A stretch of 64,000 nucleotides of DNA from Bacillota bacterium (GTDB taxonomy: Bacteria; Bacillota; Clostridia; Lachnospirales; Lachnospiraceae), in contig JAUNDN010000002.1 of NCBI GenBank assembly GCA_030526045.1, forward strand, positions 45,266 to 109,265, written 5' to 3'. Positions within the stretch are counted from its first letter, which is position 1. Each line of letters begins with the position of its first letter. Of the stretch, positions 2,181-56,031 are shown piece by piece. The translations under genes and the position numbers were made by a program. The notes under the pieces are model-generated. The model made no database searches and was not told the DNA's origin. It saw only the letters and a list, made by a program, of their open reading frames with translations.

Positions 2181-3251
2181 TTATTCCAAATATTCGTTCT
2201 GGCTGTGAAGCTCTCTTGCCTCGTAGCGATCCATATAGTCCTCTCCAAGGAAGACCACTTCCTTTGCAAAGTGGATACCATCCGGCACCGTCAGAATGGA
2301 TACCACCTTATCCACCTGCAGCTCAGGGATGAAATTCATGATTTCCATAGGAAACTTCCCGAAAAGCACAATGTACTCCGAAAACAGCTTTTCATAATCC
2401 AGCACATCTCTCGGGTGCGGTTTCAGGATCACCTGGGCATTCTGTCCCTGCTCCGATATCACGTCCCTGAAAATCTTCTCCCGCACTTCCAGACTGCAGA
2501 GCGGTTCCGTCAAAATGAGAACCTTATGCTCATGATTTTCCCCGCTTATAAACTTTTCCTTCAGCTCATCAATATTTTTTATGAACAGCTTCACAATCTG
2601 ATCCTTGTCATCCTGTGAAAGATGTTCCACCAGAAGTTCTCTTCGAAGCTCCACATATTTCGGGCAGGGATAAGGGCAGACGGAAATATCATTGACCTCC
2701 ATGTCAATACAATACTTCCCATAACCGTTTTGAATGAAAATCAAATTGATAGAGGATAGAAATGCCTTCAGCCTAAAGTGACCTTTATTATCATATCTGG
2801 CCGTGTCATAATAGCGGATACAATTAAGCCCATCCTCAAGTGCATGATAACGTATTTTCTTATAGCTCAAATAATAGCCGATGGGATCCGAATCGCAGAA
2901 AACATATACATCCTCATAGCTCCTGAAATCCACCGGCACAAAGGGCTCCTGCAGCTTTCCGAGCAGCTTCGTGTAACGGATGCGGGCAAGCATATTGATC
3001 AACAAATTCCCTCTGTCCACATGGTATTTGGCAAGCTCCGGGAACTGCACATCCTCCTTCTCGTCAAACAGGAACACCTCACCAAAAAGCTTTGATTCTG
3101 CCGCCCGTTCCTTGAGATCGCCAAAGTCGTTTGACATCGTGCTGAGCACAAGATCTGCGTTCCCCCGCTCGGCTATCGGAAGATAACATTCCTTCAGGCA
3201 GGCTACATATACATGATAAAATGTGTGACACACATAGACTCTCTTTTTCAA
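2181..3251 (-). CDS. GT52-type glycosyltransferase (sialyltransferase-like)
   Basis: 356 residues from a TTG at 3251 with GGAG 10 nt upstream. No membrane segment is evident. Two hallmark motifs of bacterial sialyltransferases are visible: the acidic-acidic-Gly motif as HALEDG (residues 136-141) and the His-Pro motif as KPHPRD (277-282). These bind CMP-activated nonulosonic acids in families GT38, GT52 and GT80. The start MKKRVYVCHTFYHVYVA also matches GT52. Next door, across a divergent promoter region, lie genes for CMP-pseudaminic acid synthesis, so this enzyme is a natural candidate to transfer the nonulosonate to its acceptor. The precise donor and acceptor are inference. It is probably cotranscribed with the cotH-like gene downstream. 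Confidence 0.7.
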   Translation of the reverse strand: MKKRVYVCHTFYHVYVACLKECYLPIAERGNADLVLSTMSNDFGDLKERAAESKLFGEVFLFDEKEDVQFPELAKYHVDRGNLLINMLARIRYTKLLGKLQEPFVPVDFRSYEDVYVFCDSDPIGYYLSYKKIRYHALEDGLNCIRYYDTARYDNKGHFRLKAFLSSINLIFIQNGYGKYCIDMEVNDISVCPYPCPKYVELRRELLVEHLSQDDKDQIVKLFIKNIDELKEKFISGENHEHKVLILTEPLCSLEVREKIFRDVISEQGQNAQVILKPHPRDVLDYEKLFSEYIVLFGKFPMEIMNFIPELQVDKVVSILTVPDGIHFAKEVVFLGEDYMDRYEARELHSQNEYLE

Positions 3252-3285
3252 CTTCTGATTTCTCCGTTTCCAAACTCTCTCGTTT

Positions 3286-3314
3286 ATTTTCGCTCATAGG
3301 GAATTATCTGTCAA
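3286..3314 (-). promoter_or_regulatory. Sigma-A promoter for the GT52-cotH operon
   Basis: On the minus strand a perfect TTGACA (3314-3309) is followed after 17 bp by GAAAAT (3291-3286), 35 bp before the TTG start. It stands back to back with the promoter of the MBOAT operon. Confidence 0.55.
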
Positions 3315-3351
3315 TCCTTTCGTCCCATTGTTCACAAAGCAAACTGCAACC

Positions 3352-3380
3352 TTGATTAAGCATAGTCTTTCTGATAAAAT
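3352..3380 (+). promoter_or_regulatory. Sigma-A promoter for the acetylation/pse operon
   Basis: TTGATT (3352-3357), a 17-bp spacer and TAAAAT (3375-3380) stand about 60 bp before the MBOAT start. This is probably the promoter for the five plus-strand genes to 8854. Confidence 0.65.
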
Positions 3381-3439
3381 ATGTAGATGAAGTTACTAAA
3401 GAAAGGATATTGTTCTATCATAACAATAAGTACAGAAGA

Positions 3440-4888
3440 ATGGTTTTCAGTTCAAGCACTTTCCTTTTTTGCTTCCTGCCGGTCTGCCTGCTCGGATACT
3501 ATCTGTTGAATAATAAACTGAAAAACGGATGGCTTCTGTTTATGAGCCTTCTTTTTTATGCTTGGGGCGGAATAAAATTTTTTCCAATCATTTGTATTTC
3601 TATTCTCCTAAATTATATTGGCGGATATCTTATTGATTGCGTACAAACCCAAGGAAAAGAAGCCTTGAGGAAAAGTATTTTCTTTATGGTAATCGTGTTC
3701 AACTTACTCCTCTTAGGGTATTGGAAATACTTCATGTTTTTTGTAAACATTTTTGAGGAAATAACAGGCATTCAGTTTCATGTCCCGGAAATTGTTCTTC
3801 CCATTGGAATTTCCTTTTTTACTTTTCAAGGACTTTCTTATGTCATTGATGTTTATAGAAGGAAGGTTCCTGTTCAAAAAAAATTACTAAATGTAGGTTT
3901 ATACATAGCTCTTTTCCCACAATTGATTGCAGGTCCGATTGTTCGCTATTCAGATATTAATGAACAGATAGAATTCAGAACCCACTCCACTTCCACGTTT
4001 GTTGAAGGAATCAGGCGTTTTACCATCGGGCTTGCCAAAAAGGCAATATTGGCTAACTCGTTAGCAGTGAACGCTGACTCTATTTTTCATACACCTTATT
4101 ATAATAATACTCCTGAAGTCGCATGGATTGGTGCTGTTTCTTACAGCTTACAAATATATTTTGATTTTTCCGGATACTCAGATATGGCTATCGGTTTAGG
4201 TAAAATGTTTGGATTCCACATCCTGGATAACTTCAATTACCCCTATATTTCAAAGTCAATATCTGAATTCTGGCGAAGATGGCATATTTCGTTGGGCAGT
4301 TGGTTACGCGATTATGTATACATTCCACTCGGGGGTAACCGCAAGGGCAAAGCATATACAATTATTAATACACTAATTGTTTTTGGGATCAGTGGACTAT
4401 GGCATGGTGCTAATTGGACCTTTATTGTATGGGGAATTTATTATGGTTTTCTGATCGTTCTACCTATCATATTCGGGAAAACAATACAGAATTTCCACCA
4501 AAAATTCGCTTTCAGCAACACGCGACTTTTCAACTTTGTAAAAATTGTCTGTACAGACTTTCTGGTATTAATCGGATGGGTGCTTTTTAAATCAGATAGT
4601 CTCAGCGCAGCAATCGGTTACCTAAAGTCAATGTTCGGGCTGGTCAATCTTTACCAACCCGGATACACCTATAAATGGTATCTGACAAATTACAACATCT
4701 TCATACTCATAATCTCTTTTGTTGCCATGCTTCCGTTAGGCAAAAAGCTTTTTTATGCACTAAAAGCCAAAATAACTAATTATGTATTTGAAGTAATATG
4801 TGATGTGAGCACATTTATTTTATTGGCCGTCTCATTAATGTATGTGGTTACGTCAACCTACAATCCTTTTATTTATTTTCAATTTTAA
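3440..4888 (+). CDS. MBOAT family membrane O-acyltransferase (DltB/AlgI-like)
   Basis: About 480 residues, polytopic membrane protein. It begins MVFSSSTFLFCFLP, the usual start of this family, and carries the conserved GPIVRY, SLQIYFDFSGYSDMAIG, FWRRWHISL and GLWHGANW motifs; the catalytic His of GLWHGA is residue 322. Such proteins move an acetyl (or D-alanyl) group across the membrane for transfer to a glycan. The next gene is an AlgX/AlgJ-like SGNH protein, so the two form a typical glycan O-acetylation pair. The start is a choice: an in-frame TTG at 3410 has a better ribosome site (AAAGGA), but the ATG at 3440 fits the family. The gene is visibly richer in A+T than the pse genes that follow, hinting at separate acquisition. 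Confidence 0.88.
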   Translation: MVFSSSTFLFCFLPVCLLGYYLLNNKLKNGWLLFMSLLFYAWGGIKFFPIICISILLNYIGGYLIDCVQTQGKEALRKSIFFMVIVFNLLLLGYWKYFMFFVNIFEEITGIQFHVPEIVLPIGISFFTFQGLSYVIDVYRRKVPVQKKLLNVGLYIALFPQLIAGPIVRYSDINEQIEFRTHSTSTFVEGIRRFTIGLAKKAILANSLAVNADSIFHTPYYNNTPEVAWIGAVSYSLQIYFDFSGYSDMAIGLGKMFGFHILDNFNYPYISKSISEFWRRWHISLGSWLRDYVYIPLGGNRKGKAYTIINTLIVFGISGLWHGANWTFIVWGIYYGFLIVLPIIFGKTIQNFHQKFAFSNTRLFNFVKIVCTDFLVLIGWVLFKSDSLSAAIGYLKSMFGLVNLYQPGYTYKWYLTNYNIFILIISFVAMLPLGKKLFYALKAKITNYVFEVICDVSTFILLAVSLMYVVTSTYNPFIYFQF

Positions 4889-4909
4889 TGGTTTATGCAG
4901 AGGATTACT

Positions 4910-6058
4910 ATGAAGGGGAAAAATTTTTTAGACAAATTATTCATAAGCATATTCTTTCTTACCTTGTTTGTTCCTTTTCTGCTTGCCCATAGAAAAGAAT
5001 CAAGAATTTCCGAAATGGAAAACAGAACGTTGGCTAATCCTCCACACTTTTTTAATCAGGAAGGTAATTTCAATTGGTCTTACTCTTGTGATTTTGATTC
5101 CTGGATCAATGATAATGTCAGATTTCGAACTATCTTAATGGAAATGAATTCTACTCTTCAATATCAATTATTCGGAAAAATAGCCAATGATAACCTTCGC
5201 GAAGGACTTGACGGACATCTATTTTACATTGAAGGCAGAAAAGTTGCAGGACATCAACACACAAATTTATTGAGTGAAGAAGAATTACAACGTTATTTAT
5301 CAGCAATGCAGCGCCTGTCCACCCGGCTTTCCGAGCAGAATATTACCTTTTATTACATGCAGTGTTATGATAAAGACAGTATTTATCCTGAATACTATGT
5401 TGAAGGTGTCAGACAATTTGGTGATATGTCAAGAGCTAACCAAATTGTCGAGGGGTTACGGAAAAATACCGATGTTAATGTTATTCCAACTTATGAAGCA
5501 TTGATGGAACACAAAGATCAGAAAATGCTTTATTTTAAGGCTACGGATCCAGCTCATTGGAACGACTCCGGCGCGCATATAGGCTATACGGAACTGATGA
5601 ATTTCATCCAAAAAGACTTTCCTGAATTGCCAATCCTTGACGAGACTGATTATCATATTGAACAAACAGAAGAATGGGCAAACATATACGGCTTTACTTA
5701 TCCGTATTCGGAAATCAACTGCCATTACAGTATAAAAAACCCTAATGCAACGGAATTGGAACTAGATTATTTTGATCCTGAAAAAATTATTAAATATAGA
5801 GAACACGGTCATTACTATATTAACGAAGACGCCAGTAATGAATTAAAAATTCTTATAGTGGGAGACAGCTTTATCCGTCAATTTTTAAAAGGAGATATTG
5901 CAGAAAGCTTTCACGAAACCTTAAGCATCGATTGGATTAACTTAGAAATTCTTGACCAAGTACTTGAAATCTATGAACCGGATATACTGGTCTTAGAGAG
6001 CGCTGAATTTTGTCTGGATAATACAATTCCTTTAGTGGCAGAAATGCCCACACCATAA
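4910..6058 (+). CDS. AlgX/AlgJ-like SGNH-fold glycan O-acetyltransferase
   Basis: 382 residues. One N-terminal membrane segment (residues about 7-25) leads into an extracytoplasmic domain. It shows the catalytic serine in GDSF (318-321) and the Asp-His pair in DPAHW (213-217), the layout of AlgX/AlgJ and DHHW-type acetyltransferases; DGHLFYIEG is also typical. It would take acetyl groups delivered by the MBOAT protein just upstream and put them on a surface sugar. ATG 4910 follows AGAGGA at good spacing; an earlier ATG at 4895 has no ribosome site. Like its partner the gene is A+T-rich relative to the following pse genes. The acetylated sugar is unknown; pseudaminic acid is a reasonable guess. 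Confidence 0.8.
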   Translation: MKGKNFLDKLFISIFFLTLFVPFLLAHRKESRISEMENRTLANPPHFFNQEGNFNWSYSCDFDSWINDNVRFRTILMEMNSTLQYQLFGKIANDNLREGLDGHLFYIEGRKVAGHQHTNLLSEEELQRYLSAMQRLSTRLSEQNITFYYMQCYDKDSIYPEYYVEGVRQFGDMSRANQIVEGLRKNTDVNVIPTYEALMEHKDQKMLYFKATDPAHWNDSGAHIGYTELMNFIQKDFPELPILDETDYHIEQTEEWANIYGFTYPYSEINCHYSIKNPNATELELDYFDPEKIIKYREHGHYYINEDASNELKILIVGDSFIRQFLKGDIAESFHETLSIDWINLEILDQVLEIYEPDILVLESAEFCLDNTIPLVAEMPTP

Positions 6059-6077
6059 GAAAGGACTGGTGCAGCTC

Positions 6078-6770
6078 ATGAAAAAACATTCCCTTGCGAT
6101 CATCACTGCCCGAGGCGGCAGTAAACGGATTCCCGGAAAGAATAAGAAAGAGTTTTGCGGAAAGCCCATTCTCCTGTATTCCATTGATGCCGCTCTTCGC
6201 AGCGGGCTTTTTGATGAGGTAATGGTCTCCACGGATGATGAGGAGATTGCGCAGCTTGCCATAGAGGCAGGGGCACAGGTTCCCTTCATGAGGAGCCCCG
6301 AGACAGCCAATGATTATGCTTCCACTGACGATGTGATCCGGGAGGTTCTTGACAACTATAAGAATCGTGGACAGCAGTTTGACGCCTTCTGCTGTATTTA
6401 CCCTACAGCCCCTTTCATTACTCCCGAAAGGTTAAAAGAAGCAATGGCTTTGCTGAATGAAACCGATTCTGTCATGCCGGTGGTTGCCTTTTCCTATCCG
6501 GTGCAGCGTGCCGTTGTGATTGAAGACGGAGAACTGAAACGCAAATGGCCGGAGTATGCAAACAGTCGCTCCCAGGATTTAGAGCCCTTTTATCATGATG
6601 TGGGGCAGTTTTATGCCTGCCGCACAGAGGCATTTTACCGGGAAGGAACGACCGATACCGTCCATATGAAGCCCATGATCTTAAATGACACCGAGGTGCA
6701 GGACATTGATACCTTCGAGGACTGGGCAATTGCGGAGATGAAATATAAACTCCTTCATCCGCAGGAATAG
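6078..6770 (+). CDS. pseF: Pseudaminic acid cytidylyltransferase
   Basis: About 230 residues, cytoplasmic. The N-terminal nucleotide-binding motif (ITARGGSKRIPGKNK) and the following LLYSIDAALRSG and STDDEEIA blocks mark the CMP-sialate synthetase family. HDVGQFYA near residue 175 and the pse neighbours favour the PseF branch, which activates pseudaminic acid with CTP to CMP-Pse. An in-frame GTG at 6069 is an alternative start nearer the AAAGGA at 6060-6065; the ATG at 6078 is preferred because the product then starts like the family. It is the first pse gene after the acetylation pair, with a 19-bp gap, and is followed by pseI. Confidence 0.88.
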   Translation: MKKHSLAIITARGGSKRIPGKNKKEFCGKPILLYSIDAALRSGLFDEVMVSTDDEEIAQLAIEAGAQVPFMRSPETANDYASTDDVIREVLDNYKNRGQQFDAFCCIYPTAPFITPERLKEAMALLNETDSVMPVVAFSYPVQRAVVIEDGELKRKWPEYANSRSQDLEPFYHDVGQFYACRTEAFYREGTTDTVHMKPMILNDTEVQDIDTFEDWAIAEMKYKLLHPQE

Positions 6771-37716: not shown

Positions 37717-38072
37717 AGCAGCCGGTACAATAATGCCATTGTCCGGATGACTGTCCGAAAAGCCGATGGTGGATCTATGTGTTCGTCACAAGTAAAAGCG
37801 GGGCAGAAAAATCTAATCCGCGCATGAAAAATAAAAACAGCTCTCAGACTTTAAACTCGCTTCGCTTCGAACAGGTAAAGTCTGAGAGCTTTATTTTTCA
37901 TTGCGCGGGTTGATTTTTTACGCCCCGTTTTTGAATTGTTCCTTACACATAGATTCCACCACCGGCTTTGAGTTTCATCCGGACAGTGTAATAAGCATTT
38001 GTACCGGCTGGGTTCGCCAAATCCCGAAATCGTTTATAGTCTGGCTGAGAAGGGATGCATGCCCTTTTAGCA
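37717..38072. repeat. Long palindromic intergenic element, copy A
   Basis: About 350 bp, nearly identical to the reverse complement of 53294-53653 (copy B). The core is AGCTCTCAGACTTTA (37839-37853) and TAAAGTCTGAGAGCT (37876-37890) around a 22-nt loop, with T-rich tracts on both outer sides. Outer arms (CCGGATGA, GATGGTGGATCTATGTG, GCGGGGC, CCGCGC) also pair across the axis. The left arm is cut short at the prs stop. It fills the 418-bp gap between two convergent genes; no open frame or transposase. Confidence 0.85.
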
Positions 38073-38131
38073 GATAATCGATCTACGCAACAGTTCTTTT
38101 AATCTATAATTGTTCTCCGGATGTATACTCG

Positions 38132-52400: not shown

Positions 52401-53249
52401 ATGAATGTACAAAACAACAGACGGTTTTCTCCCGGCAGACTTCTGCTCCAGTTGCTCCAGGGCGCATTAATCGGTCTTGGTTCCGTCCTTCCCGGTATAT
52501 CCGGCGGCGTTCTGAGCGTAGTATTCGGCATCTATAAGCCCCTTATGGAGCTTCTTGCCAATCCCTTTGGCCGGCTAAAGACACACGTGCCCAGGCTTCT
52601 TCCCTACATTGCCGGAGCCGCCATCGGTTTTATGGGTGTCGCCAATCTCCTTGCTTTTGTACTGGAAAAATATCCTGCACCTTCTGTCTGCCTGTTTGTC
52701 GGATTGATTGCAGGAATGCTCCCTTCCCTGTGGCGGGAAGCAGGAGGGCAGGGACGAAGCAAGGGCTCCTATTATTCCCTTACGATGGCAATGGCGCTTG
52801 TATTTGCACTTTTGATCTGGCTAAATACCTCTTCCATCGTCATTACTCCCAACTTTATCTGGTATCTTTTTTGCGGCTTCTGTCTTGCCTTAAGCGTAAT
52901 TGCTCCCGGAATGAGCTTTTCGACCCTTCTGATGCCGTTAGGGCTTTATACCCCCTTTGTGGATGGCATCGGCCATTTGTCTATGAAGGTTTTGATCCCT
53001 GCCGGAATAGGCGGTCTAGTCACGATCATCTGCCTGTCCAGGGCTGTCAATATGCTGTTTGACAAGTATTACTCCTTTGCCTTTCATGCAATCTTAGGAA
53101 TCGTCATTGCAGCAACCGTCATGATTATTCCTTTTGAGAGCTTCACCGTATCCCTTACCAGCGCTCTTATCAATGTTTTCTTCCTTGCTACGGGCATCTT
53201 TGCTGCTACCGTACTTGACCAATTCAACAGTAAGGTGGAAGTTGCCTGA
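52401..53249 (+). CDS. DUF368 membrane protein (undecaprenyl-phosphate flippase family)
   Basis: 282 residues, eight or so membrane segments. The start LLQGALIGLGSVLPGISGGVLSVVFG and the inverted counterpart LALSVIAPGMSFSTLLMPLGLY are the two PGxS(G) re-entrant motifs of DUF368. Members (PopT) return the C55 carrier lipid to the cytoplasmic face for reuse in wall and surface-glycan synthesis. That fits a genome segment rich in MurC/F, Ddl and glycan genes. GAGGT ribosome site. Monocistronic; its transcript would run into palindrome copy B. Confidence 0.9.
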   Translation: MNVQNNRRFSPGRLLLQLLQGALIGLGSVLPGISGGVLSVVFGIYKPLMELLANPFGRLKTHVPRLLPYIAGAAIGFMGVANLLAFVLEKYPAPSVCLFVGLIAGMLPSLWREAGGQGRSKGSYYSLTMAMALVFALLIWLNTSSIVITPNFIWYLFCGFCLALSVIAPGMSFSTLLMPLGLYTPFVDGIGHLSMKVLIPAGIGGLVTIICLSRAVNMLFDKYYSFAFHAILGIVIAATVMIIPFESFTVSLTSALINVFFLATGIFAATVLDQFNSKVEVA

Positions 53250-53262
53250 CCATACACCCCCG

Positions 53263-53746
53263 ATAAAAGCATCCCTTGCATAAATCATTTTTTTGCTAAG
53301 GGGCATGCATCCTCTCGCGTAGGACTATAAACGATTTCGGGATTTGGCGAACCCAGCCAGTACAAATGCTTATTACACTGTCCGGATGAAACTCAAAGCC
53401 GATGGTGGAATCTATGTGTAAGGAACAATTCAAAAACGGGGCGTAAAAAATCAACCCGCGCAATGAAAAATAAAGCTCTCAGACTTTACCTGTTCGAAGC
53501 GAAGCGAGTTTAAAGTCTGAGAGCTGTTTTTATTTTTCATGCGCGGATTAGATTTTTCTGCCCCGCTTTTACTTGTGACGAACACATAGATCCACCATCG
53601 ACTTTTCGAACAGTCATCCGGACAATGGCATTATTGTACTGGCTGTTTCTGCCAAATCTATCGAAATCGTTTAGAAGCCTTACGCAAAAGGAATGCATGC
53701 CTACTATAACAGCACAAAATTCAATTTATGCAAGGGATGCTTTTAT
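53263..53746. repeat. Long palindromic element, copy B, with 23-bp terminal inverted repeats (MITE-like)
   Basis: The 23-mers at 53263-53285 and 53724-53746 are perfect reverse complements. Between them lies one large imperfect palindrome (about 53294-53712): both arms share GGCATGCAT, AAACGATTTCG, CAGCCAGTACAA, TGTCCGGATGA, GATGGTGG, CTATGTG and CGCGCAATGAAAAAT-like blocks and meet in AGCTCTCAGACTTTA / TAAAGTCTGAGAGCT near 53474-53525. The 23-mer can be read as TA plus a 21-bp repeat, i.e. TA on both sides. It reaches three bases into the hydratase gene end (stop at 53745-53743). No open frame of note. Confidence 0.85.
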
Positions 53747-56031
53747 ACTCTGTTGTAATTGATCAGGCATCCTTTTAGGATAATCTGGCGTTCTTCGTCG
53801 GTCATTTCTCCAAGCTTAACGGTAAACTCGGTCAGGTCCTTTTCTCCCACTTTATAGGCCTTGATCTCTTCAGCCTTGTTCATCACTGCCTGACGGATTC
53901 CGGGGAAGAACAGATAATCCTTATTTTGGAAGGGAAGGTCACCCTCCTTAATCAGGAACGGAAGCATACCCCAGTTAATCAGGTTAGAACGATATCTCTT
54001 GGTTGCATACTCATTAGCAATATTCGCCCAGCCGCCAAGCACCTTCTGGCAAGAGGCTGCCTGTTCTCTTGCAGAGCCGTCACCCGGCTTCACTGCAAAA
54101 ATTGTGGATCCGAAGCCTACATTTCCTTCTCCGACTTCAGGATAGCTGGTATGAATAACCTCCATCACCTGCTTCAGTTCCGGCTTTACTGTAAGCGGAC
54201 ATTTCCCTTCCATCACTGCCTTCTGGGCAACCTGAATATCCTTTGCAAGTCCCACATAAGCGGGATCCTTTCTGGAAAGGGTAAATTCCGCAAGTCCCAA
54301 AGGGTTGGAACGATAGGAAGAGGTTTCCCCTGAAGGAATCAGCTCATCTGTCGTAGTCACCGGATCATGGATCTCAGATACAACACGCAGCACAAGATTT
54401 TCGGGAAGCTCTGTCATTGCCGGCCAGTCCTTAATGTTGGGGCCCAACTGAATTTCCACCGTGGTATCAGCCACTCCCTTGGAATCGAAAACTCTGTTTG
54501 CATAAATATTCGCATCAAAATGGTACTGATACTTATTAACAGGACCATCAAAATCTGTTGCTGCCGTAAGCACTCCCTTGTTTGCTGCGGTTGCGGCAAT
54601 GGAACGGGCATCCATAAGTGCCACGGAAGCAATCTGTCCGCTCTGCAGCTTAGAGCCTTCTCTGTTCGGGAAGTTTCTGGTAGAGTGTCTGATACTAAAG
54701 GCATTGTTTGCAGGGGTATCTCCCGCGCCAAAGCAGGGACCGCAAAAGGCTGTCTTCATCACCGCGCCGGTCTCAAGAAGGGTTGCTGCGCAACCATTTT
54801 TGATCAGTTCCATATATACGGGCATGGATGCCGGATACACACTTAAGGTAAATCCGTCAGAACCGATATAGCTGCCCTTCATGATATCAGCTGCTGCACA
54901 GATATTCTCGAAACCACCACCGGCACAACCGGCGATGATCCCCTGGTCTACCATCAGCTTTCCGTTCTTCACCTTGTTCTTTAAGGTAAAGTCCACTGCT
55001 CCGTCAAGGGAAACAGCTGCCTTCTTTTCTACATCATCCAAAATGTCCATGAGGTTTGCATTCAGTTCCTCAATGGTATAGGTATTACTGGGGTGGAAAG
55101 GCATGGCAATCATAGGCCTGATCGTAGCAAGGTCTATAGTGATCATGCCGTCATAATATGCGATCTCACCCGGGTTTAATTCCTTGTACTCTTCCTTTCT
55201 GCCGTGAATCTCATAGAATTCCTTGATCTCATCATCTGTCCTCCAGATGGAAGAAAGGCAGGTCGTCTCTGTGGTCATGACATCGATACCGATACGGAAA
55301 TCGGCACTCAAAGAAGCTACGCCGGGACCGACAAATTCCATCACTTTATTCTTAACATAGCCGGAAGCAAACACCTCTCCGATGATTGCAAGTGCCACGT
55401 CCTGAGGACCTACCCCCTTCACGGGCTCTCCTGTCAGATAAATACCTACCACACCGGGCATATTAATATCATAGGTCTGGTTCAGGAGCTGCTTTACAAG
55501 CTCGGGACCACCCTCTCCCATTGCCATGGTACCAAGGGCACCATACCGGGTATGGGAATCTGAGCCAAGAATCATTTTTCCGCCCCCTGCAAGCATTTCC
55601 CTTGCAAACTGATGGATAACAGCTTGATGAGGAGGCACATAAATGCCGCCGTACTTCTTTGCACAGCTAAGACCAAACATGTGATCATCCTCATTGATGG
55701 TTCCTCCCACCGCACAGAGAGAGTTATGGCAGTTGGTCAGTACATAAGGTACCGGAAACTTTTCAAGACCTGATGCTCTTGCAGTCTGAATAATTCCAAC
55801 AAAGGTAATATCATGAGAGGTGAGCTTGTCAAATTTGATCTTCAGCTTCTCCATGTTACCGGAAGTGTTGTGATCCTTTAAGATTCCATATGCGATCGTC
55901 TGCTGCCTTGCAGCATCCTTTGTCATTTCCTTTCCTGTCTTTGCCTTCACTGCTGCAAGCGCTTTGGGGCTATCGGGAATCACTTCCGTGCCGTTTACAA
56001 GATAAGCGCCGCCTTCAAGTACTGATACCAT
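53743..56031 (-). CDS. Aconitase-family hydratase (YbhJ-like)
   Basis: 762 residues. Iron-sulphur aconitase fold: [20 protein letters not shown], a Cys in [13 protein letters not shown] and the Cys pair [32 protein letters not shown]-terminal swivel domain with [19 protein letters not shown], carrying the substrate-binding arginines. By length and layout it resembles E. coli YbhJ rather than AcnA/B or isopropylmalate isomerase; substrate not known. ATG 56031 follows GAGGAGG. Confidence 0.88.

Follow-up and report, generated by a model that had tools for sequence, protein, structure and literature searches.

The window analysed here is a 64,000-nucleotide stretch of a Lachnospiraceae genome (G000; throughout, G-numbers denote genomes, C-numbers contigs and L-numbers loci). 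In it, two convergent genes are separated by a 484-bp palindrome, which begins 13 nt past the stop codon of a PF04018 gene and overlaps the stop codon of an aconitase-family gene (Table 1). Its terminal 23-mers are exact reverse complements with 438 nt between them, and inside them lie four more arm blocks, 84-93% complementary, plus a central stem, all nested. The sequence folds into a single rod at -246.4 kcal/mol, compared with a mean of -112.8 (sd 6.1) for 100 dinucleotide shuffles (z -21.9), none of which folded as well. The original prediction of a near-complete palindrome with perfect 23-bp inverted ends is therefore borne out, as is the perfect 15-bp central stem (53474-53488 with 53511-53525).

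Table 1. Features of the window that bear on the palindrome and its relatives.
Feature	Positions	Strand	Basis or remark
Giant hairpin repeat, full-length copy	53263..53746	+	strand set by central covariance model: + 127 bits, - 40.9 bits
Left terminal arm, 23 bp, perfect inverse of right arm	53263..53285	+	inverted-repeat comparison
Right terminal arm; end overlaps stop codon 53743-53745 of aconitase-family gene	53724..53746	-	
Left conserved motif region (..CGATTTCGGGATTT..GAACCC..)	53321..53365	+	two inverted blocks; pattern again in 30/52 loci
Right partner of left conserved motif region	53634..53680	-	inverted-repeat comparison
Central module, match to covariance model R1	53443..53562	+	E 5.6e-29; window copy itself in training set
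A-tract AAAAAATC; putative U-tract of minus-strand terminator	53445..53452	+	conserved columns; predicted function
T-tract GATTTTTC; putative U-tract of plus-strand terminator	53551..53558	+	conserved columns; predicted function
Central 15-bp stem with conserved loop around GTTCGAAGCGAAGCGAG	53474..53525	+	fold and alignment
Left convergent gene, PF04018 (undecaprenyl phosphate translocase-like)	52401..53249	+	
Right convergent gene, aconitase family	53743..56031	-	
Second window copy, right arm shorter	37719..38090	-	95% identical over 372 bases; convergent genes either side
19 bp identical to outer-arm part of G018 element at corresponding place	3336..3354	-	possible remnant

The palindrome is one copy of a multi-copy repeat family of some gut Lachnospiraceae, about 470 bp when complete, with a patchy distribution within one genus. 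Its own genome has 24 DNA matches to it, both orientations counted, and a covariance model with 38 pairs, built from 16 sequences over the central 122 positions, matches 12 of the 37 genomes of the genus, one of them (G020) through two partial matches alone. The palindrome had been proposed to be a MITE-like repeat with recent spread; these matches bear out its dispersed, MITE-like nature, and it is clearly not confined to this one site. Near-identical cores also occur at different sites, as in G022:C22 and G025:C9, where the cores are 94% identical and the flanks do not match. Contigs terminate inside or beside copies (G017:C8, C40, C9 and C2; G022:C5 and C57; G018:C60 and C74), so the draft assemblies break there and the copy numbers are lower bounds.

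Across 397 genomes drawn from the Lachnospiraceae, scanned with stricter filters than the genus so that weak matches were lost, the model matches G000 and four genomes of three other genera. The modules in G420 are recognisably those of the present family (e.g. L133), and G420:C24 (L140) also scores with the model, while matches in G073, G122 and G335 are weaker and have mainly the central loop in common with the family. At the weak match in G335:C10 (L136), in another genus, a long direct duplication is followed by its inverse, giving an odd hairpin. A 23-letter pattern occurs in the GTDB genome collection on 13 contigs, 12 of them labelled Lachnospiraceae; when 10 of the 13 were folded, the Family XIII contig had no such palindrome. 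The pattern has no match among viral contigs, the 484-bp query has none in plasmids or phages, and neither the whole window nor six loci match Rfam at the curated gathering threshold. A literature search of open-licence PMC papers found no such repeat family in Lachnospiraceae among the titles and abstract openings listed.

The genus scan returned 122 rows, which we reduced to 83 places by omitting 39 rows that were opposite-strand images, weak or partial matches; 12 places had no 300 bp of flank, leaving 71 usable, and the palindrome was aligned in 63 of these. Both arms reach at least 200 nt in 39 copies, whose total length is 416-534 (median 471). At the centre is a loop close to TGTTCGAAGCGAAGCAAGTTT, then a variable stem, then an A-tract opposite a T-tract, and this central module is the best-kept part of the element. 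Outside the tracts, variable stems are interrupted by conserved asymmetric loops and followed by the motif TTTCGGRATTT...GAACCC. Outermost are arms, each about 50 nt long, whose sequences vary from copy to copy but pair within a copy: the left arm and the inverted right arm of the same copy have a mean identity of 0.77, versus 0.40 for shuffled arms (38 copies). Among 25 listed of the 62 copy pairs with core identity above 0.8, 23 are at different sites; their cores are 0.87-0.96 identical and their left outer arms have 0.18-0.74 in common, whereas the values for the left arm in the two shared-site pairs are 0.86 and 0.96. The window copy's 23-bp ends are similar to those of other G000 and G018 copies, with changes in both arms, and they are not a fixed terminus of the family.

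At G000:C82:47481 the aligned palindrome extends beyond both called stop codons. One of the two genes there encodes an ABC-transporter-type ATPase whose C-terminal domain model reaches the last residue, and the overlap is compatible with arm extension into host sequence. Comparing window positions 2675-6670 with G018:C1 (L167), we found an element in G018 where G000 has two genes, of 387 and 492 aa; 19 bp of the G018 outer arm persist in G000, or alternatively these are ancestral host sequence. This comparison suggested that the outer arms are inverted target duplications formed at insertion. We rejected that idea and treated the arms as parts of the element, because the 19 bp may be the remnant of an outer arm and similar motifs are found at the outer ends of several copies.

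Genes were called on both sides of 70 copies (one further copy has a gene on one side only), and the placement is convergent for 39, co-directional for 27 and divergent for 4, counts that come from crude ORF calls, with the types at G000:C18, C52 and C53 disagreeing with their sister sites. By genome, convergent placement holds for 14/17 copies in G018, 9/14 in G000 and 16/39 in all others together. The window itself, a small background, has 46 adjacent gene pairs, of which 4 are convergent; where the gap exceeds 50 bp, the figure is 2 of 16. Copies are over-represented between convergent gene ends.

Every one of the 37 genomes of the genus has an aconitase match; of the 30 loci taken from them, 18, our own included, keep the PF04018 neighbour. 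The element is present in G000 and G018, another hairpin is present in G030, and the other 15 are without the element, with gaps of 8-251 bp, several of which contain a short hairpin. Relatives thus do provide empty sites, as envisaged in the original prediction. The G030 hairpin (L074) is about 390 bp, looks unrelated, has IS4-type ends and lies between the same convergent gene pair, and it looks as if sites of this kind repeatedly attract or tolerate such elements. In the empty-site comparisons at G022:C22 and G013:C50 the other flank was rearranged. Beside the element at G000:C28 (L158) there is an extra insert of about 150 bp, hairpin-like by eye, that is absent from G018:C43 (L163).

The A-tract and T-tract flanking the central hairpin are near-invariant in 84 sequences, and a T-run right after the innermost stem is absent from some subfamilies. 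At G000:C19 the central hairpin alone is kept where G018 has a full element. A simple terminator scan with a loop limit of 3-8 nt called no terminator at the window element, and no promoter-like site was found in 53200-53800. Based on the convergent placement, the short hairpins in relatives and the lone central hairpin at G000:C19, we infer that the central module is a terminator of both genes; the family elements probably stop transcription from both sides.

The family is dispersed and non-coding and has inverted terminal arms, which are general characteristics of MITEs, and the window copy is MITE-like. An IS630/Tc1-mariner origin, earlier read from the TA at the ends, is not supported by the counts of TA and of target duplications. 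The TA is there, but it is uninformative: the dinucleotide reads the same on both strands, so any perfect inverted repeat opening with TA will also close with it. In the 39 copies with arms of at least 200 nt, a TA was located no more than 3 nt from both ends in 10, from a single end in 9 and from neither end in 20, so there is no TA signal. There is also no clear target duplication in these 39 copies, since the best direct repeat is 6 bp in 6 of them (1.9 expected) and 7 bp or more in none, and the sole linked transposase is of the IS4 family. No mobilising enzyme for the window family was found in G000 or G018. The end motif of the G000 and G018 copies has 8 matches in G000 and 13 in G018 (controls 0 and 5); among the matches listed, no two face each other at a distance typical of an IS. 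We also considered RAYT/Y1 mobilisation (PF01797, REP/REPIN type) and rejected it, as Y1 transposases are found in 6 of the 12 genomes that bear the element and in 15 of the 25 that do not, and in G000 there is none.

The IS4-family link comes from G010, where a gene for a 434-aa IS4-family transposase (NF033592, 176 bits against a cut-off of 115; PF01609) lies between the ends AAATTAACGTTTAGCT and AAGTTAACGTTTAGCT. The insertion sequence occupies 754-2493 of L226 (G010:C15:41000-44300), and its ends match those of a second, highly abundant giant-hairpin family of G010 and G030. With up to 2 mismatches, the AAATTAACGTTTAGCT-type end motif has at least 97 sites in G010 and at least 87 in G030, versus at least 30 and at least 25 for the reversed control. 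Among the matches listed, these sites often form facing pairs about 370-450 bp apart, and three such pairs, when folded, were giant hairpins of a different kind. Composites of about 640 bp (L032 and L036 in G030, L029 and L034 in G010) have two hairpins abreast, and their IS4-type ends enclose modules of the present family. We nevertheless rejected IS4 mobilisation of the window copy: the G010 transposase has relatives in 12 of the 37 genomes, but just 2 of these (G010 and G022) are among the 12 bearing genomes, and neither G000 nor G018 has one.

By flank comparison, G000 and G018 have nine element sites in common (one with a single flank), or ten with the aconitase site, and at five of the ten the core is opposite relative to the flanks. 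Three of the five inverted sites were aligned, and at G000:C53/G018:C91 the outer arms are unmoved and the core is reversed. Judged by identity, the core is clearly the same at three of the five (G000 contig given first): C18/C97, 92.8% with rivals at 84.6 and 84.8% over similar length; C52/C44, 93.8% with rivals at 76.2% and, over just 132 bases, 89.4%; and C53/C91, 92.9% with rivals at 83-84% across about half the length. At C80:83067/C17 the partner is narrowly best (93.8 vs 93.2%), and at C67/C102 it is third by score, at 96.2%, as just 132 bases align. Opposite orientations were also observed in more distant pairs, G012:C103:68751/G017:C34 and G012:C33/G017:C28 (both flanks) and G012:C39/G013:C21 (one flank). 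In only one of six distant shared-site pairs was the partner the best core match, which suggests that copies exchange cores as well.

In the ten copies that occupy the five inverted sites, the longest perfectly matching arm block measures 11-23 bp, which seems short for an assembly artefact, though every genome involved is a draft and there may be errors in some orientation or gene calls. In three sister copies that share one orientation, one-sided changes number 66 and co-changed pairs 6 (1.4 expected); 5 pairs changed on both sides and are not paired in both. Given that one-sided changes dominate, arm re-matching does not appear to be fast.

Covarying pairs had been proposed as a check on the hairpin, and the covariation is strong: across 84 distinct sequences, 35 of the 38 central pairs changed on both sides, doubly changed cells number 593 versus 169 in shuffles, and 90% of cells pair versus 37-52% for slid structures, on an alignment that was fitted to the model and hence leans towards the structure, and with relatedness uncorrected. 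Selection on one RNA strand is expected to leave more G.U than A.C on that strand. Over 63 whole palindromes, in which cells are not independent, we counted 228 G.U and 258 A.C (p 0.19). By part, the counts are 80 and 62 for the outer (p 0.15), 77 and 145 for the middle (p 6e-6, towards the opposite strand) and 71 and 51 for the inner (p 0.08). The central model alone has 187 G.U and 91 A.C, with five positions giving 116 of the 187. We read these counts as no clear strand preference, and not as proof of DNA-level pairing. Selection on the RNA hairpin, as suggested earlier, is favoured by the excess in the central model and disfavoured by the whole palindromes.

Our preferred explanation, towards which we lean without great confidence, is that these are MITE-like giant hairpin repeats that serve as terminators in both directions, and that template switching at replication has shaped their arms and orientation. 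The element would insert or survive best at gene 3' ends, and its central hairpin, bounded by the A-tract and T-tract, would be the intrinsic terminator of both neighbouring genes, a role that short hairpins would fill in several relatives. As the DNA is one long inverted repeat, we propose that template switching between the arms is possible; at replication it would re-match both arms and invert the core between them. Such a process would explain why arms are unlike between copies yet paired within a copy, why covariation is strong although wobble pairs show no overall preference for a strand, and why the cores at one site can point in opposite directions in sister genomes. Both signatures of template switching, homogenised arms and an inverted spacer, are seen in the family. 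Counting against this explanation, perfect arm blocks of the length given above are little homology for recombination, and the G.U excess of the central model is as expected of RNA. More tentatively, and with rather more doubt than belief, we suggest that these giant palindromes evolve as DNA, with template switching re-matching the arms and flipping the core so often that orientation is approximately random between sister species, and with covariation that mimics selection on RNA.

That same covariation, with two-sided changes in nearly all central pairs, could instead reflect a structured non-coding RNA, about 480 nt long and transcribed from a single strand, with selection acting on the rod, on its conserved internal loops and on the central loop. 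The conserved asymmetric loops, the much higher model score of one strand (Table 1) and the central G.U excess would all fit. We consider such an RNA unlikely, since the whole palindromes have no G.U bias and their middle part favours the opposite strand, the Rfam and promoter searches were negative, and copies reduced to the centre alone exist. The conserved loops amid variable stems, together with the lack of overall strand bias in wobble pairs, would also suit a single-stranded-DNA recombination site, integron attC-like or IS200/IS605-like, with a protein reading the bulges; the distribution of Y1 transposases described above argues against this, and we regard it as very improbable. Finally, these could be plain selfish MITE-type repeats with no host role, for which convergent sites are least harmful and palindromy is needed for transposition. 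PMC3049150 reports that pneumococcal SPRITE, BOX, RUP and IS elements are also enriched between convergent genes, with tolerance as one explanation offered, and the sister hairpin family has the ends of an IS4-family element. A purely selfish repeat fits less well with a central module that is best kept and stands alone at G000:C19, with near-invariant A- and T-tracts, and with a mover that was not found in G000 or G018, and we think it quite unlikely.

In bacteria, very long palindromes are usually regarded as unstable, and single genomes here hold a dozen or more giant palindromes at gene ends. If template switching at the DNA level does maintain these palindromes, covariation alone would be no proof of a functional RNA, and the family would offer many natural replicates for measuring arm matching and core inversion. 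If the terminator role is also correct, repeats would here have been co-opted as common terminators of convergent genes.

Several known systems resemble parts of this picture. ERIC/RU-1, YAPL/RU-2, NEMIS and the Rickettsia palindromic elements are likewise dispersed, palindromic, non-autonomous and form long stem-loops, but as described in PMC2229807 and PMC10969869 they are about 100-170 bp with fixed ends, and the Rickettsia elements are located in reading frames. A survey of stem-loop repeats in 40 genomes includes clostridial families (PMC2267715). The IS4-end hairpins of G010 and G030 are similar in size (about 400 bp), come from related genomes and contribute to composites that carry modules of the family, but they have the AAATTAACGTTTAGCT ends of an IS4-family element, which differ from those of the window copy, and a transposase of that kind is absent from G000. 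For the proposed process, PMC8604942 describes arm homogenisation and spacer inversion by template switching between inverted-repeat arms, and PMC8794818 describes template switching that can create and maintain stems, with compensatory multi-base changes; those studies concern short yeast repeats and stems of RNA genes, whereas the present repeats, about 470 bp long, form a dispersed bacterial family. Among known kinds the closest is SPRITE from Streptococcus pneumoniae, for which PMC3049150 describes a terminator-like element with an 18-bp duplex and a U-rich tract, typically <200 bp, near gene 3' ends, with 15 of 30 counted insertions between convergent genes and target duplication not established. 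The present family shares with SPRITE, so described, a putative terminator-like character, the enrichment between convergent genes, the proximity to 3' ends and the lack of an established target duplication. It differs in being longer, in having conserved loops nested within it and outer arms specific to each copy, and in the inversion of its core.
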